NCBI RefSeq assembly: GCF_009389715.1 | Contig: NW_024067666.1 | Coordinates: forward strand, 1,529,001 to 1,593,000 | Direction of reading: 5' to 3' | Source: Phoenix dactylifera | Lineage: Eukaryota > Streptophyta > Magnoliopsida > Arecales > Arecaceae | Length of the DNA stretch: 64,000 nucleotides | Part shown: positions 2,147-52,996 of the stretch, piece by piece | Layout of the letters: every line of letters begins with the position of its first letter | Numbering within the stretch: the stretch's first letter is position 1 | Made by a program: the position numbers and the translations under genes | Notes under the pieces: model-generated | Database searches by the model: none | What the model saw: only the letters and a program-made list of their open reading frames with translations | What the model was told of the DNA's origin: nothing

Positions 2147-2698
2147 ACGTTCTACTAAGTGAAGCAGCAATAAGAAAAGCTGCAGAGCAAGAAGTTTGAG
2201 AGGTTCTCCAAGATTGTGTTATTGTATTACGTGTGCTATGTCATTTTCGTTCTTTATTTGTTTTTTTATCATTTGCCATGTTGATTTGTGGAGCATTGAG
2301 TAAACTGCAGTTTTGGCTTGGTTTTGATATGTGGCTGCCGATTAATTAGTTTATCTTTTTTTTTTTTTGGTACATCATTAGTTTATCTTTTGATATCTCA
2401 AAAGCCTGGGGCATGGGCAGGATATACTGTTTGATCATTTCTCCAGCTTTTGCATTGCTTATGCACTCTGACGATTCTATTCTCGACTGTAGGAAGATTT
2501 TGGAGAGACACACTTGTTTACTAAGATTATACTTCTGCACTTTACTGTAATAACTGCAGGAGTAATTTTCTGCATAAAGCTTCCGTTGGAGTATTTCTTA
2601 AATAAATTCACACATCCTTTTACCAAAAACATAAACTCAAAACAGCTAGGCTATAACTGATTGATGAGTTATCTATTTATCAATAAGAACTTGATTGA
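2147..2698 (+). other. GRF 3' UTR and flank
   Basis: AT-rich sequence after the GRF stop, with T-rich runs (2348-2369) and an AATAAA-like TAAATAAAT near 2598 that could serve polyadenylation. No other gene is seen. The stretch ends at the target site of the TRIM-2 array. Confidence 0.45.
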
Positions 2699-3509
2699 TG
2701 TCACGCCCCCGCCTCTGCGAGGCACGTGAGGCACCTAGTGCCCACGTGGGGGCCACATGAGGGGGGAACACGGGACTCCCCTGCCAGATATTGTCCGGTT
2801 CTGGGGCTTCACGCAAGCGTCCTTCACCCCTCTCCGGTTTTGTTTTCCACCCAAAACGCGTCTGCAGGATTAGAGGACACCCGCCTCATATGCCCAGGCT
2901 CTGGAACGAGTCTTTCCGATGTGGGACTATTGGACCTCACACTTTTTCCACCATCGGACAAGAGCCGTCCTCGGCTCTGATACCAAATGTCACGCCCCCG
3001 CTTTTGCGGAGCACGTGAGGCACCCAGTGCCCACGTGGGGGCCACATGAGGAGGGACCGCGGAGCTCCCCTGCCAGATATTGTCCGGTTTCGGAGCTTCA
3101 CACAAGCGTCCTTCGCCCCTCTCCGGTTTTGTTTTCCTCCCAAAATGCGTCTGCAGGATTTGGAGACACCCGTCTCATATGCCCAGGCTCTGGAACGAGT
3201 CTTTCCGATGTGGGACTATTGGGCCTCACACCCTTCCCACCATCGGACAAGAGCCGTCCTCGGCTCTGATACCAAATGTCACGCCCCCGCCTCTGCGAGG
3301 CACCTAGTGCCCACGTGGGGGCCATATGAGGGGGGAACACGGAGCTTCTCTGCCAGATATTGTCCGGTTCTGAAGCTTCACGCAAGCGTCCTTCATCCTT
3401 CCCGGTTTTGTTTTCCACCCAAAACGCGTCTGCAGGATTAGGAGACACCCGCCTCATATGCCCAGGCTCTGGAACGAGTTTTTCCGATGTGGGACTATTG
3501 GGCCTCACA
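2699..3509 (-). mobile_element. TRIM-2 tandem array: LTR-internal-LTR-internal-LTR
   Basis: Three LTR copies (2699-2941, 2988-3230, 3277-3509) are separated by two internal regions of exactly 46 bp (2942-2987, 3231-3276), giving a 289-bp period. Read on the minus strand, the LTR runs TGTGAGGCCC to GGGCGTGACA. It is followed at once by TTTGGTATCAGAGCC, the standard primer site for initiator Met-tRNA, and the internal region closes with a purine tract (GGTGGGAAGGG type). The array is flanked by a perfect ATTGA 5-bp target duplication (2694-2698, 3510-3514). There is no coding capacity. This is a miniature LTR element (TRIM/SMART class); the three LTRs differ visibly, so it is not brand new. The minus-strand LTR carries AGTCCCACATCGG. 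Confidence 0.9.
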
Positions 3510-3514
3510 ATTGA

Positions 3515-5877: not shown

Positions 5878-5884
5878 CTATTTT

Positions 5885-5908
5885 CGCTAGAGGAAGGGTT
5901 TGAACCTT

Positions 5909-5941
<33 letters not shown>

Positions 5942-5958
5942 AACTGAGCTACTCCAGC
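5885..5958 (-). tRNA. tRNA-Asn(GUU)
   Basis: The 74-nt minus-strand sequence folds into a full cloverleaf. The seven-pair acceptor stem GCTGGAG/CTCTAGC contains one G-U pair. The D arm is GCTCAGTTGGTTAGAGC, and the anticodon arm TGTGGCTGTTAACCACA has anticodon GTT. The T arm is GAAGGTTCAAACCCTTC. This matches plant nuclear tRNA-Asn. Box A and box B are intact, there is no intron and no encoded CCA, and a T run follows. It should be functional in delivering Asn during cytosolic translation. Confidence 0.95.
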
Positions 5959-6436
5959 ATATTTTACACGAAGTAACCAAGAGGAAAACAAATAAAAAAA
6001 ATATAAACCAACAAACAAGCATATAAAAGCTGAGACTTGCCTTTGTTGATTCTATAAGACCATCTGATCCTGTCCAAAGTCAAGCCCTCCAAAGAAAGTA
6101 TCTTGAAAACCTAGTGGCAATAATTCCCTTAAAATATCTTTTAGCCTCCCATCCTCTTCTTAACTCTTAAACCTGTATAACCACAAGACTCAATTTTTTC
6201 TGATAAAAGATGAATGAACATCTTTCGAAGGTCATTGAAATTTAAAATCTTGTAAAAATAGAGGTCAAGCCATATTATCAGATATTAGAAGGCACTGAAT
6301 GGTTCCAAAACCTATGCCAAACGAGATGAGGCCAAGCACTTACCTGACAGAATCTCATAGGTTCACATATCCCACACTTCATTCAGGTGCCTTTTTGGCT
6401 ACTTACCTGGACATTAGCATCCAGCTCCTCTTCTCT

Positions 6437-6950
6437 AGAGATTGATTAAGATTGCACATATTAAAATAATTTCACAAATTCTCATTTTCCCTATATCTTT
6501 GAAATTTACCAGCCCCTAGAATCCATGTTTGATACATGTCGGACACTTCAATGCTTATAAAAGTTCATTAATTTCAGTTTTTAGAGAATAGTAGAGTTGA
6601 AACCAACAACTAGTTTGATTCCCTAATAATAATGCTTAAAGTGAGATTTGTTCTTTTTTAGAGATTGAATAAGCACGTACATATTTGAATAATTTCACAA
6701 ATACTCATTTTTCCCAAAATCCTTGAAGTTTATCGGCTCTTAGAATACATGTCAGATACATGTCAAACACTTAAATAATTATAAAAGTTTAATAACAAAC
6801 TGAAAGAGAGTAGACTCCAACAACTAGGTCGATCCACTATAATAATGCTTAAAGTAAGATTGTGTTCACTTTAGAGATTGATTAAGAATGTACACATTGA
6901 AATGATAACACAAATTTTCACTTTCCCAAAATTCTTGACAAACAAACATA
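6437..6950. repeat. Diverged tandem repeat, about 218-bp unit, 2.4 copies
   Basis: Units begin at about 6437, 6660 and 6873, each with AGAGATTGA(T/A)TAAG. Each continues through the same order of blocks: TTTCACAAAT(T/A)CTCATTTT, AGAATCCATG-like and ATAATGCTTAAAGT(G/A)AGAT. Spacings are 223 and 213 bp, and the third unit is partial. No coding content is seen. The rest of 5959-8020 is AT-rich, with no gene recognised. Confidence 0.75.
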
Positions 6951-8698: not shown

Positions 8699-9879
8699 AT
8701 TTAAATAGCATTGTTCTGCAGTTGTATAAAGAGCTATTGCATCAACAGACTAAACAGTAAAGTTAATCTGTTCGTTAAGAAAAATATGCATAGCTTCAAA
8801 GTAAATAAAAAATTGAAAATTGTTGTTGCTCGTATACTATCCAGCAGCTAAAACGGCTCTGTCATGCTCACAGCTAGAGCTCGCAAAACAAGGATTTTTT
8901 TTTGTAATAATCATGGCACCAGGAAAATAAACAAAAATCTACAAATCTCCCATGCTTAAACATCTCTTAAACACAGAAAACATTATAACATTATTAGACA
9001 GAAATATCAACTATTAAAGCTCCGACGAACAGTAATTACCAAAAAAAATATCAACACGGTAGCTTATTAAACCTCAACCTATAACCCAAAAAACAGAACA
9101 ATAAACAACAATCCTAAATCAAAACACATTCTGAGTTTTAAATATATCAAGAACCAATTCTACAAAAGAAACTGCTCATGATATTTACCGGTGATCTATT
9201 TCTTTCAAGTAGAAATACAAACTATTGAATGGAAAGGAAACACAATCTTTATCAGAAAAAGCAAAGAAGAGGAATAACAAACGCCTTAAAATAACATGAA
9301 GTTTCCATTATATGTAATTTTATTAATTTTATTCACCTTATTTTCCTTTCGCACTAATCAAATCTGGGAAAAGAAACATAGCCTCTTTTTTAACTACATT
9401 AAAGAAGACCAAAGGTGGTCACGAGTTCAGTTGATAATCAAAATCAAAATACTCGAAGTATGAATATATTGGAGATAAAAGGAAGTGGCGCTCATATTCT
9501 ATGGGTGTAGAACGAGTCTATCATGCCAATTTCCACAGCATTCAGAACGAGGAATTTCTTTTTTTTATAATCATCGCACCAGCCGCTTTGAGAAAGCAAT
9601 AACAACAGGAAAAAAATCACACTCTGATCTTAACCTGAAGATCAAAAGGCAACAACTTTACATCTCAAAAAAACAAAACAAAACAAAACAAAAAGCAGAA
9701 ACTTTCGAATTAACTATCGGAAATTGGCTCAGACACGCATAAAAAGTCATCAATTTGGTCCTTAACTTAGTCAAATGTATCAGGATCGAGAAATGTAATC
9801 AGTCATCACAGCCAGGATTCCAATAATTAAAACTAAAATCCAAACAAAAATAACAACAAATAAATAGACTGAAAGAATC
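8699..9879. other. Non-genic, AT-rich
   Basis: Low-complexity A-rich DNA, with no exon or element boundary that I can support. Confidence 0.4.
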
Positions 9880-15666: not shown

Positions 15667-15827
15667 AAGAGGGCCGTGGGGAGGAGAGAGAGAGGAGAGA
15701 GAGAGAGTGGCTCGGGATGGGTGCCTAGGTGCGCCAAATCTCGTGCGGTGGGTGGGGCTTTTCCCCAAACACCTGGGGTGGTGAGGAGGGAGGTTTTGTT
15801 ACTGGTTAACCTTGGTGACAGTGGAGT

Positions 15828-17864
15828 ATGGCGGCACGGGGCCCTGCTGAATCGGAGAAGACGGAGGCGGGGATGGGGGAGAAAGGGACGCAACCTCACC
15901 TGAAGGTGGCCGAGAAGGTCCGGACATGGGCGGATGTGGCAAAGGGCCCGTCGAGGGTGCCGTCCTGGACAAATCACCAGATCTCGGCGGCGGAGCTCGA
16001 TGCCCTGAAGCGGCGGTTCACGGACGTGGTGGAGTTCTCGCCGGAGAAGATGGAAGTGGCCAGGGCGGCGTGGCGAGATACGGCAGTTATCATGCGTAGT
16101 TTGGGCCGCCGCGTGCCGGTGGACTGGATCAAGAAGGAGCTGCGGGTGGCCGGGAAACTTGAATACGATGCTGAGGATTTCCTGATGGCAGAGGAGACGG
16201 TTGTGTTTCGATTCCAGAGTGAGAGGGATCAGGAGGCTGTAATGGAGGCTGGTCCGTGGCTGGTGGCTGGCCAGCTCCTAGCCATGGAGCGCTGGCGGCC
16301 GAATTTTGTTCCGGGGACTAACCAACTACGCCGAGCTGTTGTGTGGTTAAGGCTGCCCAATCTTCCGACGGAATACTGGACAAAGGAACTAATTTGGGAG
16401 ATAGCAGCAAAAGCCGGGCGACCTCTGGTTCTGGACAGGGTCACCAACCAGGGCCGGAAGCTGGGATTTGCTCGCGTCAAGGTGGAGCTGGATGCCGGCA
16501 GCCCGATCAGACCTGGGACCTTCATCCAAGTAAGTTCTGAACTCCACTGGCAAATATTCCGCTACGAAAACCTACCTGGGTTTTGCTTCAAATGTGCTCG
16601 GCTGGGGCACGGGGAGGGGACCTGTCCCTATCCCACGACTCCGGCGATGCCCGAAGTCCAGCGGACCGAAGGGGATGCGTCTTCCCAGGCACCGATCTCT
16701 GAGTCGGAGGAGGGGAATGAGTCGGGGTGCCGACTCCCTTTTGGTCCATGGCTGTCGACTACCAAGCTTCGGCCTCCCAAGGTCAACAAACCGGTGAAGA
16801 AGCCGGTCGAGCTGAAGGCGGATCACACGCCGGTGCGGGAGCCTGGCGGGTCGGGGCTGCGATCCCCCAAGGCTTCACCGAATCCTTCCGTGTCGCCGTC
16901 AGACACGGATGGATGGCAGAAGCCAACCAAGTTGGCAAGGAGGCGGTCACCGGAGCAAGCTTCAACGGCGGTGAACGCCGGGAAGGCTCAACTCGGAGCA
17001 GACGCCGGGTCGGACTTGGTGTCTGCTGAGGGAATGGGCCAGACAGCGCAGGTGGGCCAGCTGGGTTGGGCCGTGCCAGGGCGGGCCAAGATGGTGGGAA
17101 TGGATCCGGGCCCAAGCCCGAACCTTATATCCCAAGGAGGGCCGGGCCAAGAGGGAACGGGCCTGACTGGGGCCAAGGGGCCGGCCCACGGACTGGGATC
17201 TAGCCCGATGAAGAGGGCCAGAAGCCCGGCCAAGGCGAGACGGGGCTCGGGGGTGACTGAGCCGACTCAGCTCCCCCGTTCGGCGTCGTCGGCTTCACTC
17301 GAGGATTCGCACCTACGCCGGCGAGAGGAGGGACGACGGCACTTCTGGAGTGCCTCCTTGCCGCCGGCGAGAGCCCCCACTCGGCTCGGGGCAGGCCGTG
17401 CTCATGCTGCTGACCGGACGGCCGGGGTTCCGCTTGCTGAGGGCGGTGCAGACAGGCCGTGCAGGCTGGTGACGGAGGGCGTGACCCAGCGGTCGGGGGT
17501 GGCCGTGGCCACTGGCGGCGAGCCGGCTCTGGCCAAGGGAAAGGGACCGAAGGAGGCGCAGACGGCTACCTCTCAACCGCGGGAGGTGGCTTTGGCACAT
17601 GTGGAGGACCCCTTATCAGGCCTGAGAAGGTTGGGGAAATCGGAAATGGGGGAAGGTTCCCTGCCAGCGACTACCAGAAACTCCCCTGTGGTGATGAGAG
17701 GAGTTCATGGGGGCTCGGGACAGGGTCCTAATTCCCCTATTCAGGATCATGGGCAGGTTGTGAGTCTGTTGCGGGCTGTGATTCAGGAAGGGGTGGAGAA
17801 GCTAGGGAAAGTGGCTAGCGAGCAGCCCACGATGCCTGGGCCTTTAACTGATAGTGTTAAATGA
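15828..17864 (+). CDS. L1 ORF1 protein (DUF4283 plus CCHC zinc knuckle), 678 aa
   Basis: This encodes the RNA-binding chaperone-like ORF1 protein of a plant L1. Residues about 60-230 fit the DUF4283 region (the segment around VVFRFQSERDQEAVMEAGPW and WVRLPNLPTEYW-like text). A CCHC knuckle, CFKCARLGHGEGTC, lies at residues 253-266. The C-terminal half is Gly/Pro/Arg-rich and low in structure. The start at 15828 has a good context (GAGTATGG) and follows a short 5' UTR. The frame is uninterrupted. It ends in an ATGA overlap with ORF2, whose ATG is at 17861. That arrangement suits reinitiation-coupled translation, though the mechanism is inferred. Confidence 0.93.
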   Translation: MAARGPAESEKTEAGMGEKGTQPHLKVAEKVRTWADVAKGPSRVPSWTNHQISAAELDALKRRFTDVVEFSPEKMEVARAAWRDTAVIMRSLGRRVPVDWIKKELRVAGKLEYDAEDFLMAEETVVFRFQSERDQEAVMEAGPWLVAGQLLAMERWRPNFVPGTNQLRRAVVWLRLPNLPTEYWTKELIWEIAAKAGRPLVLDRVTNQGRKLGFARVKVELDAGSPIRPGTFIQVSSELHWQIFRYENLPGFCFKCARLGHGEGTCPYPTTPAMPEVQRTEGDASSQAPISESEEGNESGCRLPFGPWLSTTKLRPPKVNKPVKKPVELKADHTPVREPGGSGLRSPKASPNPSVSPSDTDGWQKPTKLARRRSPEQASTAVNAGKAQLGADAGSDLVSAEGMGQTAQVGQLGWAVPGRAKMVGMDPGPSPNLISQGGPGQEGTGLTGAKGPAHGLGSSPMKRARSPAKARRGSGVTEPTQLPRSASSASLEDSHLRRREEGRRHFWSASLPPARAPTRLGAGRAHAADRTAGVPLAEGGADRPCRLVTEGVTQRSGVAVATGGEPALAKGKGPKEAQTATSQPREVALAHVEDPLSGLRRLGKSEMGEGSLPATTRNSPVVMRGVHGGSGQGPNSPIQDHGQVVSLLRAVIQEGVEKLGKVASEQPTMPGPLTDSVK

Positions 17865-20800
17865 AGATAATAGCATGGAATTGCAGGGGGGCGGCCAAGC
17901 CTTCTTTTTTGCCGTCCTTCAAAAGACTAGCTCAGCTTCATTGCCCCGATATTTGTTTCCTATGTGAGACACGGGTGTCCGGAGATGGTCTACGTCGGGT
18001 GCAGCGACGTTTAGCAGCTGATTGGGATTCATTTGAAGTTGAATCCCAGGGCTTGTCTGGAGGAATTTTGATGTTGTGGAAGCGAGGTGTTGCCTCTATC
18101 GATGTTTTCCGCCATTGTACTCAGCAGGTGGTGATGGTCATTTCGGAACCAAATGAACCCCCGTAGGTCTTGTGTGGGGTCTATGCCAGCACTGATTACC
18201 GGACTAGGAGAGTCCTTTGGGGTGAGTTGTCATGTTTACTGACTCAGGGGGTGCCGATAATGGTAGTGGGTGATTTTAACTGTGTACTAGGCCCTAATGA
18301 AAAATGAGGTGGGAGGACCTACTCTGACTCAGTGGATAGGAGGGAGTTTCGGGAGTTTCTGGATGTAAATGGATTGGTGGACCTCGGCTTCACCGGATCG
18401 CGGTTCACTTGGTGCAACAATCAGTCTGGAGGAGGGAGAGTGTGGGAGCGGCTTGACAGAGCTATTGCATCCCCGGATTGGATTCAGCGTTTCCCATCTT
18501 ACCAGGTTAGTCATCTTGCTCGTATTGCCTCAGATCACTGCCCTCTTTTGATTTCTACAGCTTCGACCTCCAGTCATTATAGCCCTTTCCGCTTTGAGAA
18601 GCTGTGGTTGTCATACCCACAATCTTGGGAAGTGGTCAGGGGGGCTTGGGGAGTGCCAGTACAGGGAAATGCTATGCAGAGGGTGTCGCGTAGTCTGGAG
18701 CTTACTAAGCGTCGCCTTCGCAGATGGAATCGGGATGTTGTGGGTAATGTGTTCCGGAGATTGGAGGAGGTGGAGGGGTTGATTGTGAATCTCCAAGGAA
18801 GGGAGGACCGTGAGGGGGAGCTGGAGGAGGAGGAGATGGCAGACTTACGACGACATCTGTCCTCCCATCACTCATTGTTGCATCAGCAGGAGATTTTTTG
18901 GAGGCAGAAGTCGAGAGTTCAGTGGGTCAAGGAGGGAGATCGAAACACCAGCTTTTTCCACCGATCGACGGTCATCAGGAGGCAAAGGAATATGATACGA
19001 TCACTGAGAGTGGGAGTGGGACAGCGGGTGGAGGAGGATTCTGCAGTGAGACGATTGTTGTTTGATTTCTTCAGGACTAGATGGACGGAGGTAGAGGAGC
19101 CCTTGGAGCTTGGCCGGCTTCCCAGGCCGGCGGTCAGAGTTGAGGAGGCAGAAAATGAAGCATTTATTCGACCTGTGTCTGATAAAGAAGTACAAGAGGT
19201 GGTATGGGCTCTAGCAGAGGACAAGGCCCCAGGTCCGGACGGGTTTCCACCCTTCTTTTTTCGGAGATATTGGAGTATTATACGGAGGTCGGTGGTAGAG
19301 GCAGTGCAGCTATTTTTCAGTCGGGCGGTGATGACAGATGACTGGCAGGCGACTTTTATCACTCTGATACCGAAGCGTCAGGATGCATCGGAACCGGGCC
19401 ACTACAGGCCCATTAGCTTGTGCACCACTTTGTATAAGATAGTGATGAGGCTTATGGTTGGGAGAATGAAGACTGTGCTGCCTAGCATTATTAGTCAGGA
19501 GCAGGGAGTGTTTGTGGGAGGGAGAAGCATATCAGATAACATCTTGTTAGCGCAGGAGATGATGGGTGACCTACAGAGAGCCCCGAGGAGGAGGGGTTTG
19601 ATGGCAGTGAAAGTGGACATGGAGCGTGCCTATGACCGGATCCGCTGGGCCTTCCTTAGATGGGCACTGGAGAGTTTTGGCTTCCACCCGACCTGGATTG
19701 ACTGGGTTTCTGGCATTGTGCAGGGACCTAGTTTCTCCATATTGGTCAATGGTACGCCTTCGCCTTTTTTTCGAGCCACTATGGGGCTCCGCCAGGGATG
19801 CCCTTTGTCCCCATATCTTTTTATCCTATGCTCTGATGCCCTTTCCCGTGCACTACGTGTAGCTTGCGAGAACCGGGAGTTGGATGCCTATAGTCCAGCC
19901 CCGGCTGCTCGCCCCATTTCTCACTTGCTTTTTGCAGATGATTGCCTGCTACTTGCCAGGGCGAGGGTGAGGGATGCACGAGCTCTCCAGAGAGTGTTGA
20001 CTGAGTACTGTGGGGCTTCCGGACAGAGGATCAATCTCCGGAAGTCATCTATACATTTCAGCCCATGCACGGAGCGGAGGGTGCGCCGAGAGATCAGGGT
20101 GATATTGGGGATGCAGGAGCAGGAGGGAGCTCTGGACTACCTTGGGGTTCCCATCACTGGGAGGAGATTGCGAGTGGCGGAGTGCTCTACTTTGGTGCAG
20201 AGGATGCAGAGCAGACTTGAGGGCTGGAGGGCCTCATCACTTTCTATGGTGGGTAGGCTGACGCTGGTCAGGTCTGTTCTCTCTTCCATGCCTATTTACC
20301 TTATGGCCCATACTGTTGTGCCGAAGACGATTTTGATGGGGATAGAGCGACTTATGCGTGGCTTCCTGTGGGGCTCCTTTGGGAGAGGCCACGGGGTACA
20401 TTTGGTGGCCTGGGGGAGAGTTTGTTCGCCTCTGGGCGAGGGTGGCTTGGGGGTGCAGTCACTGCTGGTGAGGCGGGAGGCGCTCCTGGCGCGGCGGGCA
20501 GTGCAGATTGTTTTGGAGCCCCAGGGACTGTGGAGTCAGGTTATGATAGCGAGATATGGCCGGGCAGGCCCTGCTGGCCCGGCGGTGGGGAGACGTAGGA
20601 CCTCTGTTATGTGGCGGGAGGTTGGGAGGTACCTGCCTATGGCCCTGGCGCACACTAGATGGCTGATTGGTGACGGTCGGAGCATTGACGTGATGGAGGA
20701 GCCATGGGTGGATGCACTTCTGTTGAGTTTGTGGCCGACGATGATCAGCGGTGAGGGGGCGGAGGGACTACGGGTCTGCGACCTTATGATGCCGGGGGAG

Positions 20801-22009
20801 GCAGAGTGGGATGTGGACAGGCTGGGCCAGTTATTTGGGGAGCACCTAGCCGAGCGAGTACAGGCCCTTCCTGTTCCGAGATCAGCAGGGCCAGATGTCA
20901 GGGTATGGAGCACCACCGGCAGTGTCAGAGTCAGGGTGGGCGATGTTGCTTGGGTCCTTCAGCAGAGATCAGAGCTGGGCAGGGACTGTGGCTGGGTCTG
21001 GAGATTTGGGCTACACCAGATAGTTGCACTTTTTCTCTGGAAGGTGGCCTGGGATCGTCTGCCGACGAGCTGGATTTTGAGCCGATGTGGGGTCAGCATT
21101 CCACCTGTGTGCCTATCTTGTGAGGTGGACGAGTCAGTGGATCATGCTCTATTCCAGTGCGTTTGGGCGAGGCAGACTTGGAGGCTGTCCGAGATCCCGG
21201 AGAGTGCCTGGAGCCGGAGGGATTGTTTTTTGGAGGAGGTTCGGCAGTGGTCTAGCTCCCCTCAGATGCGCCTTGTGGCTATTCGAGCGTCCTGCACAGC
21301 GTACCAGATCTGGCTGGCCAGGAACGCTCGAGTATTTGGCGAGCTCCGCCCGTCCCCATGATTCGTGATGGAGCGGGCTCGGACACAGGTAGCAGAGCTT
21401 CTCTCTGCAGGGTTGAATGATAGACCTTTGATAGCTCGGGACATCTGGGGCCCCCATACTGCTACGGCAGCTTCTCACACGGTGTTTTTCACCTGGGAGC
21501 CCCCACCCCCGAATTTCCTCAAGGTCAACTTTGACGGTTCGGTCCTGGATGGAGGCAGGAGAGGAGGGGCAGGTTATGTTATCAGAGGACCGAGCTCTAC
21601 CATGGTGGCAGCAGGGGGGTGTCAGATCTTTGATACCTCGGTCCCAGGGGCAGAGCTGCGAGCGGCTTGGCTGGGATTGCGACATGCGCGGCGTGTGCTT
21701 CGGGCGAGCGCTATCCTTCTGGAGGGCGACTCGTCCACGGTGATCAGATGGGCCCAGCAGGGCCCTCACAGGGACGGAGGAGGGGTGCATCCTCTGCTTC
21801 GTGATATAGGGTCGATAGTAGGGGAGGGGATCACCTTTCGGGCTATGCATATATATCGGGAGGCCAACGGGGCCGCGGACTGGGTGGCGGCATATGTGGC
21901 TCGCCACTCGGGAGATACCCTATGGGTTGGTGAGGGTGATTTACCCGGTGCTTTCCGGGACATTTTGTTTGCAGACGCTTCTGGGTGTATTCGTACCCGA
22001 CTAATATGA
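17861..22009 (+). pseudogene. L1 ORF2 (endonuclease, RT, zf-RVT, RNase H) with three in-frame stops
   Basis: One frame of 1383 codons runs through the whole gene with no frameshift. It is interrupted by TAG at 18164, TGA at 18305 and TGA at 21359. The endonuclease shows WNCRG, CETR, VVGDFN, GSRFTW, DRAIAS and SDHCPLL. The RT has DGFPPFFFRRYW, LIPK, VKVDMERAYDRIRW, GLRQGCPLSP and FADD (residues 691-694). A zf-RVT region has CLSC and H-x4-C. RNase H has FDGS (from residue 1224), GAELRA, LEGDS and ADWVA. All catalytic motifs are present. As it stands the protein cannot be made whole, because the endonuclease is cut twice, so autonomous movement is unlikely without read-through. Confidence 0.93.
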
Positions 22010-24499: not shown

Positions 24500-25410
24500 T
24501 GAAACCTAGGATTGGTGTCAGCTTGGTTGGATAAAATTCAGCAGGTATTAGTTTTGCCAGTGGCAATCTGTACTGAATAAATTCTGAATTTTTATATAAG
24601 ACCATAAAATTCAAATAATATCTTCTAAATAGTTTTTTTGATGAGATTTTGGATTGTTACAAATGGTATTAGTGCAAACCTAACCCATGACTGATGTGAA
24701 CTAGTAAACACTATAGCATGGGCCCATTTGGACTGACCATGAACCAATCGTGATATTTGTGATTGGATATGAATGACTTTAGACCATTAACTTCGTAAGA
24801 ATGCATGGCTTAAAATGGAAGGAGTATGTGAGAACCCATGCGAGCATATATTTAGTTCCATATTAATTATGCATGGATAAATTTTGAGTACTTATATAAG
24901 GCCGAAAAATTCAAATAATACTTTTTTGACTAGTCCTTTTGTAATAACCTAGACCTCACCCAAACTGGCTAGCTAAAATGTATTATTTGGGCTCTTTAAT
25001 CTTATATAAGTATCCAAGATATACCTAGCGAATAACCGATGTGGGACTAAATATATGCCCGCACGAGTCCTCATATATATATTTCCCCCATTCAAGCCCT
25101 GACGTCCTTGTCAGGCTAAGGATTTGAATTCTTTCAAATCTAAATACAAACACTGCGATCGGCCCGTGGCCAGCCTTAATGGATCAGTGTTGCAGTATCC
25201 TCTAGTCCACATAAGCTATGGAGCGGATTCGCTATGATACCATTTGTAATAACCCAGGACCTCACCTAAAATGGCTAGCTAAAAAGTATTATTTGAGTCC
25301 CTTGATCCTGTATAAGTACCCAAGATCTATCAAACGAATAACCGATGTGGGACTAAACACATGCCTGCACGGATCCTCATACCTTTTGAATAAGATCCTG
25401 AATTGTTATA
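24500..25410 (+). mobile_element. Older TRIM-1 (plus strand), split by a younger TRIM-1
   Basis: A left LTR ends GGATTGTTACA at 24661 and is followed by AATGGTATTAG, a Met-tRNA primer site. The internal region leads to a right LTR starting at about 24827. That LTR is interrupted at 24939 and resumes at 25382, ending near 25410. The left end of the element is not definable, so 24500 is approximate. It is diverged and ancient. Confidence 0.75.
24940..25381 (-). mobile_element. TRIM-1, two LTRs, nested in an older TRIM-1
   Basis: LTRs at about 24940-25075 and 25245-25381 flank a 169-bp internal region. On the minus strand the LTR is followed by AAATGGTATCATAGC (primer site), and the internal region ends with an AATGGGGGAAA purine tract. 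A perfect CCTTT target duplication lies at 24935-24939 and 25382-25386. The LTR contains GTCCCACATCGG and, downstream, TATATAAG. There is no coding capacity. Confidence 0.9.
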
Positions 25411-29618: not shown

Positions 29619-31015
29619 CCTCTCTGATTACTAAAAATTCACCTTGCATTTTTTTTTTTTTTTTTTTGAGAAGAAAGATGGGCATGGAGCAGAGGAAAAT
29701 ACATTTCATTTAGTTTTCATAGTTACTTTGCATTGTTGTAAGTAGATTTAAATCATGTGGAATGTCTTCTAAGGATATCGGGCATAGTTCTAAGAGTGGA
29801 GATTTTATAAAAACAGCCTTGTTTGTTTTGCCCTTTCTTTTTTTTCTCTAAAATGATCTAGTTTTAAAATTTTTGGATGCTTTTGCTCTTGATCTTAGCA
29901 AATAAACTCCAACCATATTTTTAAGCTAAATCAGATGTAAATATCTTATAAAGTGAATGCACACATTTTGATCAGATTGGCCTATCTTATGTAAGGATTC
30001 CGATCTGGCTGGCTTGAGTTCTATGGTTGCAAAACTCGAATGCAGCTTGCAGGCTTTTCGGAGAATTGAGGTCTCAATTGGGCGCCTTGTTTTGCTTTTG
30101 TGTCTACTCTGCCCTGGAAGATCATTCTGTTGCTTTCTTCAAACTTTCTCAATTAGGCTCTTGTCACAGGTGATGTTTAATCTTTGGGGCTTGTTTGGGA
30201 CTCTTTTTTGTGCTTTATTTCCTTCCCTGAAGTGTCATCCACTTCAAGGGTCTTTAGCTTGATGTCGCAGAAACTTCTAGGATTCCTTCAACTTCTGTAA
30301 CTCACAGTGCCCCTTCTTTTTTATTTCTCTCTTTTGTACATTCTCCTCCTTTTCTATTTATTGACAGTATTTTCAACTCAGCCCCATATCAAAAATCCAT
30401 AATTCTAAAAATTTTAAATTTTAAATTCCAAATTTCTAGAATCGATCCTTAATATGTGGCCAGATATAGGGCTAAGATGAAGATATTGCCAAAGTCGGAT
30501 AACTTATATGATGCCATATCATGGCCGTTCCTTCCCTCTCGGGCGGAGGCCATCTATGCCGGAGAAGCCCCTTCATCTCCTTCTAGCATAGAATCGCACG
30601 TCGCTGCGGTAATTCCGAGCTCTCAATTAGCATTTTTTGCCATGTCCTTGTGATTTCTTCATAAAGATCTCTTCCTTGCTTTCTAATTCCCCTGAACCAT
30701 CTATGGGCTGTGAAATCCAATGTAGAGCCTATTAAGGCATCCAATTCTTTCATATGAATTCGGAGAAAGAAGGCTGCTTGGTGCTGCTTTGTCTTCCTTT
30801 TTTTTATATAGGGAAGGGTGATCACGTTTGATGTCTTTGAGGCAGCAGCAAACCTGGATTTATTTTTTTTTTGCTGACAAGGGAGGTAAAAAATATGACC
30901 CCAGCTTTTACTAGAGAAATGAAAGCTATTTACGACTGTTATGTACAAAGAGCGCGATGAAGGTAGCTCTACAAAGGAGCAGGAATCTTCAAACAAGATT
31001 GGATTTTTAGCAAGG
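29619..31015. other. Non-genic; a degraded unassigned frame on the minus strand
   Basis: A minus-strand frame at about 30930-30600 reads KELDALIGSTLDF and RWFRGIRKQGRDL, which looks protein-like. I cannot assign it; a degraded retroelement is possible. Nothing else is recognised. Confidence 0.3.
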
Positions 31016-31268
31016 TATGAGGACTCAAGCGAGCGCGTGTTTAGTTCCATATCGGTTATTCGCTGGATAGATCTTGAGTACTTATACAGGATCAAGAAAT
31101 TCAAATAATATCTTTCCGCTAGATTTTTTGGGTGAGGTTTTGAGTTGTTACAAATAGTATCAGAGGGGATGTGGTCCATAATCTATATATGTGAACTAGA
31201 GACACTGCAGCACGATTCATTAGGGCTGACCACGGGCTGATCATGATACTTGTAATTAGATTTGAATA
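31016..31268 (+). mobile_element. TRIM-1 partial copy: one LTR plus part of the internal region
   Basis: A 137-bp LTR (31016-31152, TATGAGGACTC to GTTGTTACA) is followed by AATAGTATCAGAGG (primer site) and about 115 bp of internal sequence shared with the other copies. It then meets L1 sequence. Confidence 0.8.
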
Positions 31269-35634: not shown

Positions 35635-36173
35635 AATGGCAATACGAATTTAACTGTGTAATTCGTTCAACTTATTTAACCTATTGTACATTGAGTTAGA
35701 TCAGGTTCAAATCTGAATTTTGACTTGTTTAATAAATAAATCAGTTTCGGGTTGATAGATTTTGATCTATCATATATTCTGTAGCAATCCACGATCTCAT
35801 CCAAAAAGGCTAGCCAGAAGATTTTGATCTCACACAGGTTCTCACATACTCTCTCATTCAAGCCCTGACGTCCTCGTCAAGCTAAGGATTCAAATCTAAT
35901 CACAAGCACCATGATTGGCCCGTGATCAACTCCAATGGATTCGTGCTGCAGTGTCCCCTAGTCCACATAGATTATGGGCTGGGTTTGCTCTAATACCATT
36001 TGTAACAACCCATGACCTTACCCAAAATGGCTAGTCGGAAGGTATTATTTGAGTTTTTTGATTTTATATAAGTACCTAAGATCTATCCAGTGAATAATTA
36101 ATGTGAGACTAAAAATATGCTCGCACGAGTCCTCGCATATTCGACCCAATCCGATCCGACCTGATTGTAACCC
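35635..36173. mobile_element. MITE, GGGTGGCAAT family, copy 3, split by TRIM-1
   Basis: The left part (AACTTATTTAACC, GGTTCAAATCTG, GGGTTGATAGATTTT) and the right part (CCCAATCCGATCCGACCTGATTG) align in order with 55964-56175. The break is exactly at the TRIM-1 insertion at 35780-36137. The outer ends are worn. Confidence 0.65.
35780..36137 (-). mobile_element. TRIM-1 inserted in a MITE
   Basis: A 358-bp element with a perfect TATTC target duplication (35775-35779, 36138-36142). The right-hand LTR copy is 36001-36137 (137 bp); the other LTR is shorter. The internal region carries the primer site (TAATACCA on the plus strand next to the LTR) and the CTTGACGAGGACGTCAGGGC block common to the family. 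Confidence 0.9.
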
Positions 36174-36177
36174 ATAA

Positions 36178-36602
36178 ACACGGTCTCCAAATTCTTCTTT
36201 CTATAGACGCCACTCATGTATCAGAGAGACATGGGATCAGCTGGTAATTGCATTTGGTCGGCAAATCTAGCATGAAAAGAACTTTTGCATGCCGTCAGCT
36301 GGTCACTGCTCACTTATAAGGTTCCTCTAACATCCCCTTCTGTAATTACCTAATGGATTCAGCCGATGCCCATAACCTTTCAAAGAACGCAAAAAAATCT
36401 CCTATTCCATGGAGGTGGGCTAAAATATCAACATCAATTCTCATCTCAGAAATTAATATGCACATGGTTTGATGTAACGGTGGATCGTGACAGGTCCAAA
36501 TTTCTCGGTTCCACCTGCTCGCTATTCACATACAAGACATACGCACATGAACTCCATTGTCCCCTCTGCTGTTGCTTCTGCCCGTGATTTGGTTAGCTAT
36601 TT
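36178..36602. other. Non-genic
   Basis: No gene is supported; a 73-residue frame at 36366-36587 has no family features. Confidence 0.35.
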
Positions 36603-37470
36603 TTTTCCCCCCAAAGTGAAGCAATCACAGCGATGAAAGTTGCATGGTCGCATTGGGACGAGGCTATTCTGCTTTTTGCCTATGTTACTTTTAAGGTTGT
36701 TGAGGTCAGAGATTGGTGAATATTTCCCCCTTTCAAAAAAGAAAATGAGAAAAACACAGCGAAGGAAAAACTATGCGAATCATTGTAAAATAAAGGCTCT
36801 TGTCACATGTCAATCTTAAAACTGAGATTGCATTTCTAAAATTAGAGTCAGAATTTTGATTTATAACTATTTGCTACTTGATTTTCAAGCTATTAATCCC
36901 GATATTTAGTCTATCGGCATGGGTTTTTGTTAGGATTTTGAGTGTTGAATTAGAGGACCTCAGTTAGGATCTTTATCGGTATGGATCTTTGTTAGGATTA
37001 GGAGTTTTTAATTAGAGGAACTTAAAGTCTCAATTTTTTTCCCCCCAAAGTGAAGCAATCACAGCGATGAAAGTTGCATGGTCGCATTGGGACGAGGCTA
37101 TTCTGCTTTTTGCCTATGTTACTTTTAAGGTTGTTGAGGTCAGAGATTGGTGAATATTTCCCCCTTTCAAAAAAGAAAATGAGAAAAACACAGCGAAGGA
37201 AAAACTATGCGAATCATTGTAAAATAAAGGCTCTTGTCACATGTCAATCTTAAAACTGAGATTGCATTTCTAAAATTAGAGTCAGAATTTTGATTTATAA
37301 CTATTTGCTACTTGATTTTCAAGCTATTAATCCCGATATTTAGTCTATCGGCATGGGTTTTTGTTAGGATTTTGAGTGTTGAATTAGAGGACCTCAGTTA
37401 GGATCTTTATCGGTATGGATCTTTGTTAGGATTAGGAGTTTTTAATTAGAGGAACTTAAAGTCTCAATTT
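36603..37470. repeat. 434-bp tandem duplication, two apparently identical copies
   Basis: Copy 1 (about 36603-37036) and copy 2 (about 37037-37470) agree at every base I compared by eye. The join falls in a T-then-C run (TTTTTTTCCCCCC). The content is non-coding and contains its own short repeats (TCGGTATGGATC, TTGTTAGGATT). Confidence 0.9.
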
Positions 37471-37532
37471 TGGCATACGCATTAATATAGTACAATGCAA
37501 TATGGCGGCTTAGAGTTGTAACGGATGAGAGT

Positions 37533-37669
37533 TGTAACAACTCAGAGCCTGACTAAAAATAACTAGGCAGAAGGTATTAATTGGACTTCTTCACCATATA
37601 TAAGTATCCACTATCTATCGAGTACATAGTCAATGTGGGACTAAATACACGCTATCATGAATCCTCACA
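37533..37669 (-). mobile_element. TRIM-1 solo LTR
   Basis: 137 bp from TGTAACAACTC to TCCTCACA, containing AATGTGGGACTA (the inverse of the TAGTCCCACATT element) and CATATATAAG. It is flanked by AGAGT and AGAGC, a near-perfect target duplication. Confidence 0.8.
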
Positions 37670-44830: not shown

Positions 44831-45259
44831 TGTAACAATTGAGGATCTCACACAAAATGACAAGCCAGAATGTATGATTTAGTTTTTTTGATTTTGTATA
44901 TGTACTCAAAATCTACCCAACGAATAACCAATATGGAACTAAACATATGCCCACGCGGGTCCTCATATACTCTCCTTGTTTAAGCCCTGATGTCTTCGTT
45001 ATACTAAAAGTTCAAATCCAATCACAAATACCACCATCGGCTTATGGTCAGCCCTAATAGAATCATGCTGTAATGTCCTTTAGCCCACATAGATTATAGG
45101 TTAGATCTGCTCTGATACCATTTATAACAACTCAAGACTTCACTTAAAATGGCTAGCCGAAAAGTATGATTTAGATTCCTCGATCTTGTATAGGTACCCA
45201 AGATTTATCCAACGAATAACCAATATGGGACTAAACACATGCCCGCGCGAGGCCTTGCA
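44831..45259 (-). mobile_element. TRIM-1, complete, two LTRs
   Basis: LTRs 44831-44967 and 45123-45259 (137 bp each) flank a 155-bp internal region. A perfect CGCTG target duplication lies at 44826-44830 and 45260-45264. A primer site (CTGATACCA on the plus strand) adjoins the LTR. The LTRs differ clearly, so the insertion is old. Confidence 0.9.
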
Positions 45260-45424
45260 CGCTGTCTCAGTACTAGGCTCCATACTGGTGCTATTCTATT
45301 ACTATGTAGATATACTCGATAAGAAGTCTGATTCAGCAATACTGAGTGTCGGTATGCCCTCCACACCGTATACTAGTACCAAATCAGTACAGTACGGTAC
45401 GTTCCGTATGGTTTAGTTCGGTAC

Positions 45425-45919
45425 TGTGAGGCCCAATAGTCCCACATCGGAAAGACTCGTTCCGGAGCCTGGGCATATGAGGTGGGTGTCTCCAAATTCC
45501 GCAGATGCGTTTTGGATGGAAAACAAAATCGGAGAGGGGTGAAGGACGCTTGCGTGAAGGCACAGAACCGGATAATATTTGGCAGGGGCACTGGGTGTCT
45601 CATGTGCCTCGCGCAGGTGAGGGCGTGACATTTGATATCAGAGCCGAGGACAACTCTTGTCCGATGGTGGAAAGGATGTAAGGCCCAATAGTCCTACATT
45701 GAAAAGACTCGTTTCAGAGCCTAGGCATATAAGGTGGGTGTCTCCAAATCCTACAGACGCATTTTGGGTGAAAAACAAAATCGGAGAGGGGTAAAGGATG
45801 CTTGCGTGAAGCCCCGGAATCGGACAATATCTGGCAGAGGAGCCCTGCGGTCCCCCCTCGTGTGGTCTCCACGTGGGCACTGGGTGCCTCACGTGCCCCA
45901 CGCAGGCGGGGGCGTGACA
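45425..45919 (+). mobile_element. TRIM-2, two LTRs and a 46-bp internal region
   Basis: LTRs 45425-45630 and 45677-45919 flank an internal region of 46 bp (45631-45676) that starts TTTGATATCAGAGCCGAGG and ends GGTGGAAAGGA. A perfect GGTAC target duplication lies at 45420-45424 and 45920-45924. The LTR begins TGTGAGGCCCAATAGTCCC. It inserted into a GTACGGTACG-rich stretch. Confidence 0.92.
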
Positions 45920-45924
45920 GGTAC

Positions 45925-48828: not shown

Positions 48829-49296
48829 CTACTGGAGGACGATGTGGCGGCGGAGCTCGAAGAGACGGCGGTGGAGGGCGGCGGAATAGGCGCGGAGCCG
48901 GTCGTTGTCGTGGCGGAAGAGGAGGCAGAGGTTGGAGACGTCGATGAGCCGGTCGACGAGGTCTTGGTTCTCGGAGCGGAGCCGGGCTACCTGGCTCCGG
49001 AGCTCCTCGAGTTCGTGCTGCTTTCGCATGCGGGAGCGGCGGGCTGACAAGCGGTTCGAGATCCTGCGCTTCAGCCGGCGCTTCTCGGACGGCGAAAGGG
49101 CGGCCTGGTTCTCGCAAAGCTCACTGATTGGTGAAACCAGAGGAGATTCAGAGGTCCAGTTGAGAACATCAAGTGGTTCTTCTAGACTGGCGGTCGGAGT
49201 CGGGGTCGGGGCCGGGGCCGGGGCCGGCCAGGGGGTGAAGCCGAACTCGCCTTCGAGGGCCGGGAAAGGGATTGAAAAAAATTCATCCAAGGACAT
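48829..49296 (-). CDS. bZIP transcription factor, 155 aa, intronless
   Basis: A small nuclear DNA-binding protein. The basic region at residues 72-92 (KRRLKRRISNRLSARRSRMRK) carries the invariant N81-x7-R89. The leucine zipper begins nine residues later, with heptads L99, L106, L113, V120, F127, L134 and L141. The N-terminus is acidic/aromatic (MSLDEFF, EGEFGF) followed by an Ala-Pro-Thr repeat. Size, lack of introns and the long zipper resemble plant group S bZIPs. However, the basic region reads NRLSARRSR where group S1 usually has NRESARRSR, so the subgroup is open. No sucrose-control uORF was established. The start is the first in-frame ATG after the TATA box. Confidence 0.9.
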   Translation of the reverse strand: MSLDEFFSIPFPALEGEFGFTPWPAPAPAPTPTPTASLEEPLDVLNWTSESPLVSPISELCENQAALSPSEKRRLKRRISNRLSARRSRMRKQHELEELRSQVARLRSENQDLVDRLIDVSNLCLLFRHDNDRLRAYSAALHRRLFELRRHIVLQ

Positions 49297-49388
49297 CGTG
49301 GAGGACCTATTTGTAAATAAGAATTAAGGTAGGGGAGGGGAGGAGGGAAGCGGGAGAAAAGGGAAGAAGCGAGGAGGAGGGGAGGGGT

Positions 49389-50789: not shown

Positions 50790-52416
50790 CTCTCCATCTA
50801 TAACCATCAGATATTGTGTTTCAATTTTTCATGAAGGGAATTTTATGTGGTTGGGAGGTTTGTATGCGAGAGATTTGGAGGAGGGAGCCGGCGGAGGAGT
50901 TCGCTTAATCGCCAAGGAACGGAGGGAGGAACTGAAGGGATGCGTGTCGAGCTGTGATTGGTTGCACGTGTGAGACTGTGGATCCGATTGGTTCGCCCAC
51001 GTGGTCGCGTGGCGCGCACCGAGACGGGAGGCGTGGGTCCCGCCAGGGAAAGGGACTGCTTGCTGCAGCTACTAGATGGTGGACGTCACTTGAGCTTGTG
51101 GTCCTTTCAAGTATCTTGACGACATTCTTTGCGTGCTCAATTTAGATATCAATTAGGACTTATTTGATTTGCAGAATTTTTTTATTAAAATATTTTTTTA
51201 AAAAAAATTTAATTTCTAAATATATGATGCCTGAAAGGTTATTTTTGTATTTTTGATTGACTATGAAAACGGCAATTCCAAAATATTTTCGATTGAGCAT
51301 CTACTTTTTCGAAAAAAATATTTAAAATATTTATTATTTTTTAATAAAAAATATTTTTTATTTTATCTAAAAGCTTAAGGTTGCTTTTAGCCATAAAAAA
51401 AAAAAAAACGCAAATTCCCTGCCAGTGAAAATAAGACTTTTCCATATTCTACATTAATTTTTCATATTCGTAAAATATGAAAAATTTATTTTCATAGGAA
51501 AGTATTTTTTTTCATTCTTTTTATTTAAAAACTTCAACTAAATTTATTCTTTTATTTTTTTGTTAACCATACTTTCACTCTTCTTCATGTGACAAACGAG
51601 AAACTATTCCTTTACCCCTGGCTGGGTTTGTAGTCTTCTTCTCAATACATGCATGGGAGTTTCCCCAAGAGCTCTTGGTTTGCTGCATTTTTGGTGGCTT
51701 CTAACACATTTTGTTCTAGCCATGTAAATTGTTAGTCAAGGAGATAGCTTCAAGAGGACAAGGCTCATGATAAAAAAGGCATTAGAAATTTCTGGTTCTG
51801 AAAGAAAGCGCTTAGTTAACTAATGATTGAGTTTTTTTTTTCCTTTAAAAAAATAATGGTTGAGTTTAAAATAATTTAATTCATGATTTGCATGACCGAG
51901 TGTTGTCTTAGTGGTCAAATATCTCTGCGTAAGGAGCAAAAGTTCCACATTCCAGACTTGCTTGGTGTATACTAATATTTAAACATAGATAAATACTATA
52001 TATGTATGTAGATTGTATACATGGTGAGGTTTAACCAATTCCATGACTACAGATTTTAATGTAGTTATGTTTCATGTCTAATTATTTTATGAAAAAAAAT
52101 GATATAGAAATGCTTATCTAATTTCTCCATCCATTTACGTTGATTAAAGTTTTGCTCTTGGTAATAAATAAGGTTTTCTTTGTCACCTGTTGCAAAACCC
52201 CAATGCAAGTAGGGCATAGGTTTAGTAATTTTTTATCCAAAGGCTCGTTGACAGTAATTGTTTCAAAAGCCAAGGGTTAGTCTATAACCTCAAAGCTAGC
52301 CTTGCCAAATTTGAATTTGATTTCTCCTAAAAAAATATACAAATTCAAGCTCAAAAGCTATACTCAAAGCCAATCAACACCAATCTTTGTACAGATGCGC
52401 AGCTGTAATAAACATA
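50790..52416. other. Non-genic; AT-rich MITE-like block at about 51150-51590
   Basis: The AT-rich block carries imperfect inverted motifs (TTTTTATTAAAATATTTTTT, AAAATATTT) but no clear ends. No gene is supported. Confidence 0.35.
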
Positions 52417-52900
52417 GCATCAACTGATCTTTCTTTGCGCAAAAAAAAAAAATTATGTTATCTCTTTCTCTCTGCTGTCTCCCACAAATTGGTATTACCA
52501 ATTTGTCTCGAGCAGCCTTGTGTTAAGGTTGCATATAAATTTTTTCTCAGAAAGATTTGAAATAAATTCAATGCGAGAAACTTATTAAGGCTTGATGTTA
52601 CAAGGTATATTGTTTGCCCTGATATTTTGTCATAACCCTGGACCTCACCCAAAAAAGCATCAGGTGATCTTTCTTTGTGCAAAAAATATTATGTTATCTC
52701 TTTCTCTCTGCTGAGTCTAGCAAATTGCTAATACCAATTTGTCCCAAGCAGCCTTCTGTTAAGCTTAAGGTTGCATAATATAGATTTCTTCTCAGAAAGA
52801 TTTGAAATAAATTCAATGTGAGATACTTATTAAGGCTTGATGTTACAAGCTATATTGTTTGTCCTGATATTTTATCACAATCCAAGATCTCATCCAAAAA
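52417..52900. repeat. Tandem duplication, about 242-bp unit, two diverged copies
   Basis: The unit starts AGCATCA(A/G)(C/G)TGATCTTTCTTTG at about 52417 and again at about 52659. It includes GATTTGAAATAAATTCAATG and CTTGATGTTACAAG, and the first ~30 bp of a TRIM-1 LTR. The copies are diverged. Confidence 0.8.
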
Positions 52901-52996
52901 AGCTAATCAGAATGTATTATTTAGGTTTCTTGATCCAGAACCTCTATCCAGCGAATAACTGATGTGAGATTAAATATACGCCTACATGGGCCTGCA
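52873..52996 (-). mobile_element. TRIM-1 solo LTR, worn
   Basis: The CACAATCCAAGATCTCATCC start, the GATGTGAGATTAAATA core and the GGGCCTGCA end match the TRIM-1 LTR. No target duplication was found. Confidence 0.65.

Follow-up and report, generated by a model that had tools for sequence, protein, structure and literature searches.

Two insertions of a TRIM-type LTR element with a 46-bp interior in date palm DNA

How little sequence can lie between the LTRs of a mobile LTR retrotransposon is the question raised by two loci, A and B, within the 64-kb stretch of DNA analyzed here (the window), at which neighboring LTRs are separated by only 46 bp. We conclude that the two loci are very probably separate insertions of an old, non-coding passenger TRIM that was moved by the machinery of another element. 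This kind of element is already known, and the length of the interior is the sole new point. The features of the two loci are as follows.

2694..2698, no strand: target-site duplication ATTGA, left flank of locus A, identical to 3510-3514
2699..2941, minus strand: locus A 3' LTR, 243 bp, TG...CA
2942..2987, minus strand: locus A interior 1, 46 bp, made up of a 2-nt gap, the primer-binding site (PBS, 2973-2985), a 20-nt spacer and an 11-nt purine-rich tract
2988..3230, minus strand: middle LTR of locus A, 243 bp, more divergent than either of the outer LTRs
3231..3276, minus strand: locus A interior 2, 46 bp, PBS at 3262-3274
3277..3509, minus strand: locus A 5' LTR, 233 bp, with deletions of 1 bp and 9 bp
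3510..3514, no strand: target-site duplication ATTGA, right flank of locus A
45420..45424, no strand: target-site duplication GGTAC, left flank of locus B
45425..45630, plus strand: locus B 5' LTR, 206 bp, with a 37-bp deletion
45631..45676, plus strand: locus B interior, 46 bp, with one mismatch in its PBS (45633-45645)
45677..45919, plus strand: locus B 3' LTR, 243 bp
45920..45924, no strand: target-site duplication GGTAC, right flank of locus B

As the initial annotation had noted, each of the intervals 2942-2987, 3231-3276 and 45631-45676 measures exactly 46 bp; the LTRs on either side have TG...CA ends. It had also described them as three independent internal regions; however, the two in locus A share one target-site duplication and the middle LTR within a single three-LTR insertion, and the window therefore contains two independent insertions, not three. 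Locus A (2699-3509, minus strand) has the structure LTR-46-LTR-46-LTR, a tandem of 811 bp in total with a single ATTGA duplication around the whole, and locus B, on the plus strand at 45425-45919, consists of LTR-46-LTR within a GGTAC duplication, with a total length of 495 bp. Both duplications are perfect 5-mers positioned exactly at the element ends, as had been reported, and with the TG...CA ends they give both loci the appearance of true insertions, in agreement with the proposal that these were mobile units. By self-BLAST (E up to 1e-5) the alignment of locus A with locus B is confined to the element, and the two copies are oppositely oriented and flanked by different duplications. The long LTR-to-LTR matches, both within and between the loci, have BLAST E values of about 2e-50 or better, and the interior of locus B matches each locus A interior with an E value of 8e-14. 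No further copies of the element were found in the 64-kb window using BLAST with the LTRs and the interior (E up to 1e-3).

The three interiors align without gaps, with 39 of the 46 columns invariant. Read on the element strand, each starts with 2 nt and a 13-nt primer site, TGGTATCAGAGCC; a 20-nt spacer follows, and the last 11 nt are purine-rich, with a single T (GGTGGAAAAAG, GGTGGGAAGGG and GGTGGAAAGGA in the three interiors). The claim made at the outset, that nothing more than a primer site, some 20 bp and a purine tract separates the LTRs, is correct. The primer site, which presumably fits the initiator Met-tRNA, is exact in both locus A interiors and has one mismatch in locus B. Allowing up to two mismatches, TGGTATCAGAGCC has seven matches in the window versus 1.14 expected, a number reached by none of 100 shuffles; three of these are the interiors' own sites, one is in the 3' LTR of locus B, and three are in other repeats. 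A related string, TGGTATCAGAGC, is given as the tRNA-complementary PBS of Cassandra (PMC7215508, PMC10853983) and is contained in the PBS reported for Wukong, ATTGGTATCAGAGCCA (PMC8003530), and the PBS of retrozymes is attributed to tRNA-Met in literature passages that do not give the string.

Because the same 46 positions are present at two unrelated sites (n=2), these sequences suggest that the founder element already carried the 46-bp interior; the evidence for a length constant throughout the family consists of these two insertions. Further back a longer ancestor is expected, in keeping with the account in PMC4717578, in which internal deletion of larger LTR elements is the likely source of TRIMs. 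The same account lends some credence to an origin of the equal interiors by coincident but independent deletions from a longer-bodied LTR element, and two of the five LTRs do contain deletions. However, loci A and B arose by separate insertions, and their interiors correspond gap-free over the same 46 positions, 39 of them invariant; separate deletions would hardly share identical end bases, which makes this origin very unlikely.

The five LTRs are 243, 243, 233, 206 and 243 bp long, and all start with TGT and end with GTGACA. The length of 243 bp originally assigned to them thus holds for three of the five, the other two being shortened to 233 and 206 bp by deletions. The alignment of all five has 243 columns with a mean column identity of 90%, and the first three and last ten bases are invariant. 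In the 3' LTR of locus B, 20 of the 27 changes from the LTR majority are C-to-T or G-to-A, and such transition-heavy changes would fit the decay of methylated DNA. The copies at both loci are old and decayed, and because the LTRs of locus B are far diverged from one another (K2P 0.164), present activity of both copies is unlikely. At 1.3e-8 substitutions per site per year, a rate taken from a paper on rice (PMC3281118), the outer LTRs of locus A would be 2.3 My old and those of locus B 6.3 My; these ages are rough because the changes are mostly transitions, and they could be too young if the host evolves slowly.

The element was initially read as a non-coding LTR element of the TRIM type, and rightly so. 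TRIMs are bounded by direct repeats, about 100-250 bp long and with TG...CA at their ends, corresponding here to repeats of 206 to 243 bp with TGT...ACA ends; a total length below 1 kb without coding capacity, corresponding to 495 bp at locus B and 811 bp at locus A; a PBS after the 5' LTR and a polypurine tract (PPT) before the 3' LTR, with TGGTATCAGAGCC lying 2 nt inside the LTR; and a short target-site duplication, here ATTGA or GGTAC. The feature that departs from this description is the interior, which is 46 bp here and 100-300 bp in the original TRIM description (as quoted in PMC4528315), although the latter is a typical range and not a strict criterion, because elements with interiors of 67-80 bp have already been called TRIMs.

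Six stop-to-stop frames (106-169 aa) crossing the loci contain nothing that scores above the curated cut-offs of Pfam, and the best match, to B9-C2 (E 0.0026, 18.3 bits versus a cut-off of 27), was taken as chance. Rfam finds no 5S or tRNA family at either locus at gathering thresholds, nor do permissive scans of both loci yield a 5S or tRNA match up to an E value of 5. Each permissive scan gave one match, to Noro_CRE (14.8 bits) and WT1-AS_2 (15.5 bits), both far under the gathering score and taken as chance. In the whole window at gathering thresholds Rfam reports only a tRNA-Asn and two snoRNAs, away from both loci. The tRNA-Asn, at 5884-5959 on the minus strand, is the only tRNA gene predicted by ARAGORN, and the snoRNAs are the C/D-box RNAs snoR8a and snoR126 at 9486-9583 and 9724-9814, also on the minus strand.

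These scans bear on whether the element could be Cassandra or another TRIM of the pol III type (TRIMp3: Helenus, Ajax), as the size of its LTRs and its primer site, which resembles the TGGTATCAGAGC reported for Cassandra, might suggest. Using box-A and box-B search patterns that we assume to be appropriate, a relaxed box-A pattern matches the plus strand of two of the five LTRs, and box B with one mismatch matches the minus strand of four. However, these matches are short, relaxed and without a chance control, and the A and B boxes are always on opposite strands and do not pair. Because the Rfam scans detected neither 5S nor tRNA sequence in the LTRs at either locus, we reject Cassandra, and a pol III element of any type is extremely improbable. 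Cassandra is also a TRIM with tandem arrays, but its LTRs are described as containing a 5S rRNA-derived pol III promoter (PMC7215508, PMC10853983), whereas we found no 5S-derived sequence in the LTRs here.

The known element closest in layout is Wukong of maize, with LTRs of 230-232 bp (PMC4528315, PMC8003530). As described, it shares with the element here an interior containing a PBS and a PPT, a 5-bp target-site duplication and tandems of at least three LTRs, but its interior is 67-72 bp (72 bp with a 230-bp LTR in PMC4528315, and 67 bp for the copy in SAT1 in PMC8003530); the likeness is one of layout as described. FRetro129/SMART of grasses (PMC3281118) is likewise tiny and non-coding with a 5-bp duplication and TGT...ACA ends, and with 85-bp LTRs and a 122-bp interior it is smaller overall but has the longer interior. 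The biv-TRIM elements of bivalves (PMC6934838) similarly have terminal repeats of 202-218 bp and a short interior with a PPT at its end, but differ in their interior of 77-80 bp and their animal host. CcaRetroS9 is given as the smallest TRIM by total length (233 bp, with 52-bp LTRs; PMC4717578), corresponding to an interior of 129 bp by subtraction, and the interiors of ta-TRIM (PMC4558846) and wheat Taigu are reported in the literature as about 590 bp and 630 bp, respectively. At 46 bp the interior is shorter than all those compared, as these sources give them (FRetro129, Wukong, biv-TRIM, CcaRetroS9, ta-TRIM and Taigu). The earlier suggestion that it is near the minimum is fair as to length, but the step from Wukong and biv-TRIM is small.

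In the open-licence literature we found no published 46-bp interior, no interior of 45-47 bp or statement of an "internal domain/region of only" such a length, and none of the element's own sequence strings. The family may have been catalogued already, as date palm TRIMs are listed in PMC4717578, where the date palm row of a table ends 9, 777, 13,358, 0.78. Two element patterns have no matches in viral contigs, a third (a 17-mer) is present in five, and one pattern occurs in genome contigs in 23 stretches with prokaryote titles. Using the two locus B LTRs, the locus B interior and one locus A LTR as BLAST queries, no related element was seen in the 23 genome loci, with short motif matches only among the matches listed (E up to 10), or in all 28 loci, with only short motif matches (E up to 1), the best of which (8e-4) lies around the 17-mer that had been searched for.

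Tandems with three LTRs are common among the TRIMs of plants: tandem forms were reported by Gao et al. (2016, PMC4717578) in 129 subfamilies from 35 of 43 genomes, with the L3I2 form constituting 63 of the 93 in maize. Those tandemly arrayed elements resemble locus A in being L3I2 within one target-site duplication and non-coding. Whether such tandems form before or after insertion is left undecided in PMC11899658, and locus A provides a small test case. Between its outer LTRs there are 13 differences over 233 sites, all of them transitions (K2P 0.059), whereas comparison of the middle LTR with the outer ones gives 22 differences over 243 sites and 21 over 233 (K2P 0.099 and 0.098). As the two outer LTRs are more similar to one another than to the middle one, the sequences weakly favor insertion of locus A as a ready-made three-LTR tandem, or formation of the tandem soon after insertion, over a later crossover.

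There are 27 two-state sites in the locus A LTRs, at which the odd base is in the middle LTR 14 times, in the 5' LTR seven times and in the 3' LTR six times. Under a star history, 14 or more for the middle LTR has a P of 0.036, and for any of the three a P of 0.107 (chi-square P 0.12). At sites polarised by locus B the outer LTRs share the derived state four times, and the other pairings twice and once. The p-AU values for five trees are 0.86 and 0.33 with the outer LTRs paired, 0.125 with the middle paired with the 5' LTR, 0.047 with the middle paired with the 3' LTR, and 0.048 for the star; the bootstrap value is 88 for the split between the outer LTRs and the middle plus locus B, and no tree among the five is rejected by the KH or SH test.

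Tandem copies of Wukong (PMC4528315) and likewise of ta-TRIMs (PMC4558846) have been attributed to unequal crossing-over, which at locus A would have involved the LTRs of one copy at some point after it had inserted. Such an origin would also be consistent with the single target-site duplication around locus A, with the three polarised sites (2 + 1) that conflict with the outer pairing versus four that agree with it, and with the failure of the KH and SH tests to reject any tree. However, a late crossover should leave a middle LTR composed of segments from both outer LTRs, whereas the middle LTR is the odd one out (14 versus 7 and 6), and the expected 3'-then-5' mosaic is not seen across six segments. 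Crossing-over immediately after insertion predicts the star tree, for which p-AU is 0.048; the tree pairing the middle and 5' LTRs, with a p-AU of 0.125, stays unrejected. We regard crossing-over as possible rather than probable.

Insertion as a ready-made tandem can also be compared with the complexes made by reverse transcription, for which Sabot and Schulman (2007, PMC1950507) give as a diagnostic set an internal LTR, two cores, target-site duplications and outer LTRs that are most alike. Locus A has the internal LTR, the two cores and the flanking duplications of these template-switching complexes, but the likeness of its outer LTRs only leans that way and is statistically weak. The published complexes are described for large elements, with rice and maize candidates screened for a length of more than 10 kb.

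Mobilization of such an element would presumably begin with transcription from the 5' LTR, most probably by RNA polymerase II, and the RNA would enter the particles of an autonomous LTR element. Copying would be primed by Met-tRNA, with strand transfer through R and priming of the second strand at the PPT, and the integrase of the autonomous element would carry out integration. Any packaging signal would then have to reside either in the 20-nt spacer or in RNA that stems from the LTRs (R, U5, U3), and as LTR-derived RNA could contain it, the short interior raises no contradiction. TRIM interiors are described elsewhere as non-coding with a PBS and a PPT (PMC4528315, PMC6934838), and PMC4558846 proposes that TRIM specificity may rest on the PBS, the PPT, the LTR ends and a packaging structure that is conserved only structurally.

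At locus A, the less decayed of the two loci, both spacers contain 7 nt perfectly complementary to the end of the primer site (AGAGCCG/CGGCTCT), a match that occurs by chance in 31 of 5000 (interior 1) and 29 of 5000 (interior 2) shuffles of the following 30 nt. The predicted folds of these interiors cover the primer site and have z scores of -2.18 (5 of 200 shuffles as stable) and -1.66 (12 of 200), respectively. At locus B the complement is only 4 nt, a length reached by 2726 of 5000 shuffles, and the hairpin is broken, with a different predicted fold (z -0.80; 44 of 200 as stable); the break may reflect G-to-A decay. Because the two locus A interiors are not independent, the spacer hairpin is one observation without conservation behind it, and as a predicted structure is a lead only. 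The folds of the two-LTR stretches have z scores of -2.48 for locus A (1 of 100) and -1.82 for locus B (5 of 100).

A broader proposal, that this once-mobile element, reduced to primer site, 20 nt and purine tract, has the shortest interior of any LTR retrotransposon family, that the spacer hairpin holds the primer site and replaces a missing leader, and that locus A inserted as a ready-made tandem, is unlikely to be correct in all its parts. If many copies in the host share the exact 46-bp interior, this would set a practical lower bound for the sequence needed between LTRs, and a true 46-bp family would offer a natural template of very small size on which to map the signals for packaging and primer placement.

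The window contains several other features. A LINE-like element at 15819-22006 has DUF4283 and a zinc knuckle followed by reverse transcriptase and zf-RVT in long open frames, then an RNase H-like domain in an open frame of its own. A minus-strand open frame at 48832-49323 encodes a bZIP transcription factor domain. A tandem duplication at 36599-37471 with a period of 434 bp has 100% identity and is either very recent or an assembly artefact, and more diverged tandem duplications are present at 6429-6938 (period 224 bp, 77% matches) and 52416-52903 (245 bp, 84%). A second TRIM-like repeat family has direct and inverted copies, about 70-84% alike, at 24573-25385, 31012-31267, 35831-36142, 37532-37667 and 44831-45259. 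The last of these includes two 131-bp repeats with 79% identity, 292 bp apart (44833-45255), and a PBS-like sequence, TGGTATCAGAGCA, at 45108-45120 on the minus strand. The 10-mer CCGATGGTGG occurs four times in the window versus 0.06 expected, once in each 46-bp interior (2948-2957, 3237-3246 and 45661-45670) and once between the repeats of this neighboring second-family copy (45031-45040), which hints at interior sequence common to both TRIM-like families, or is chance.
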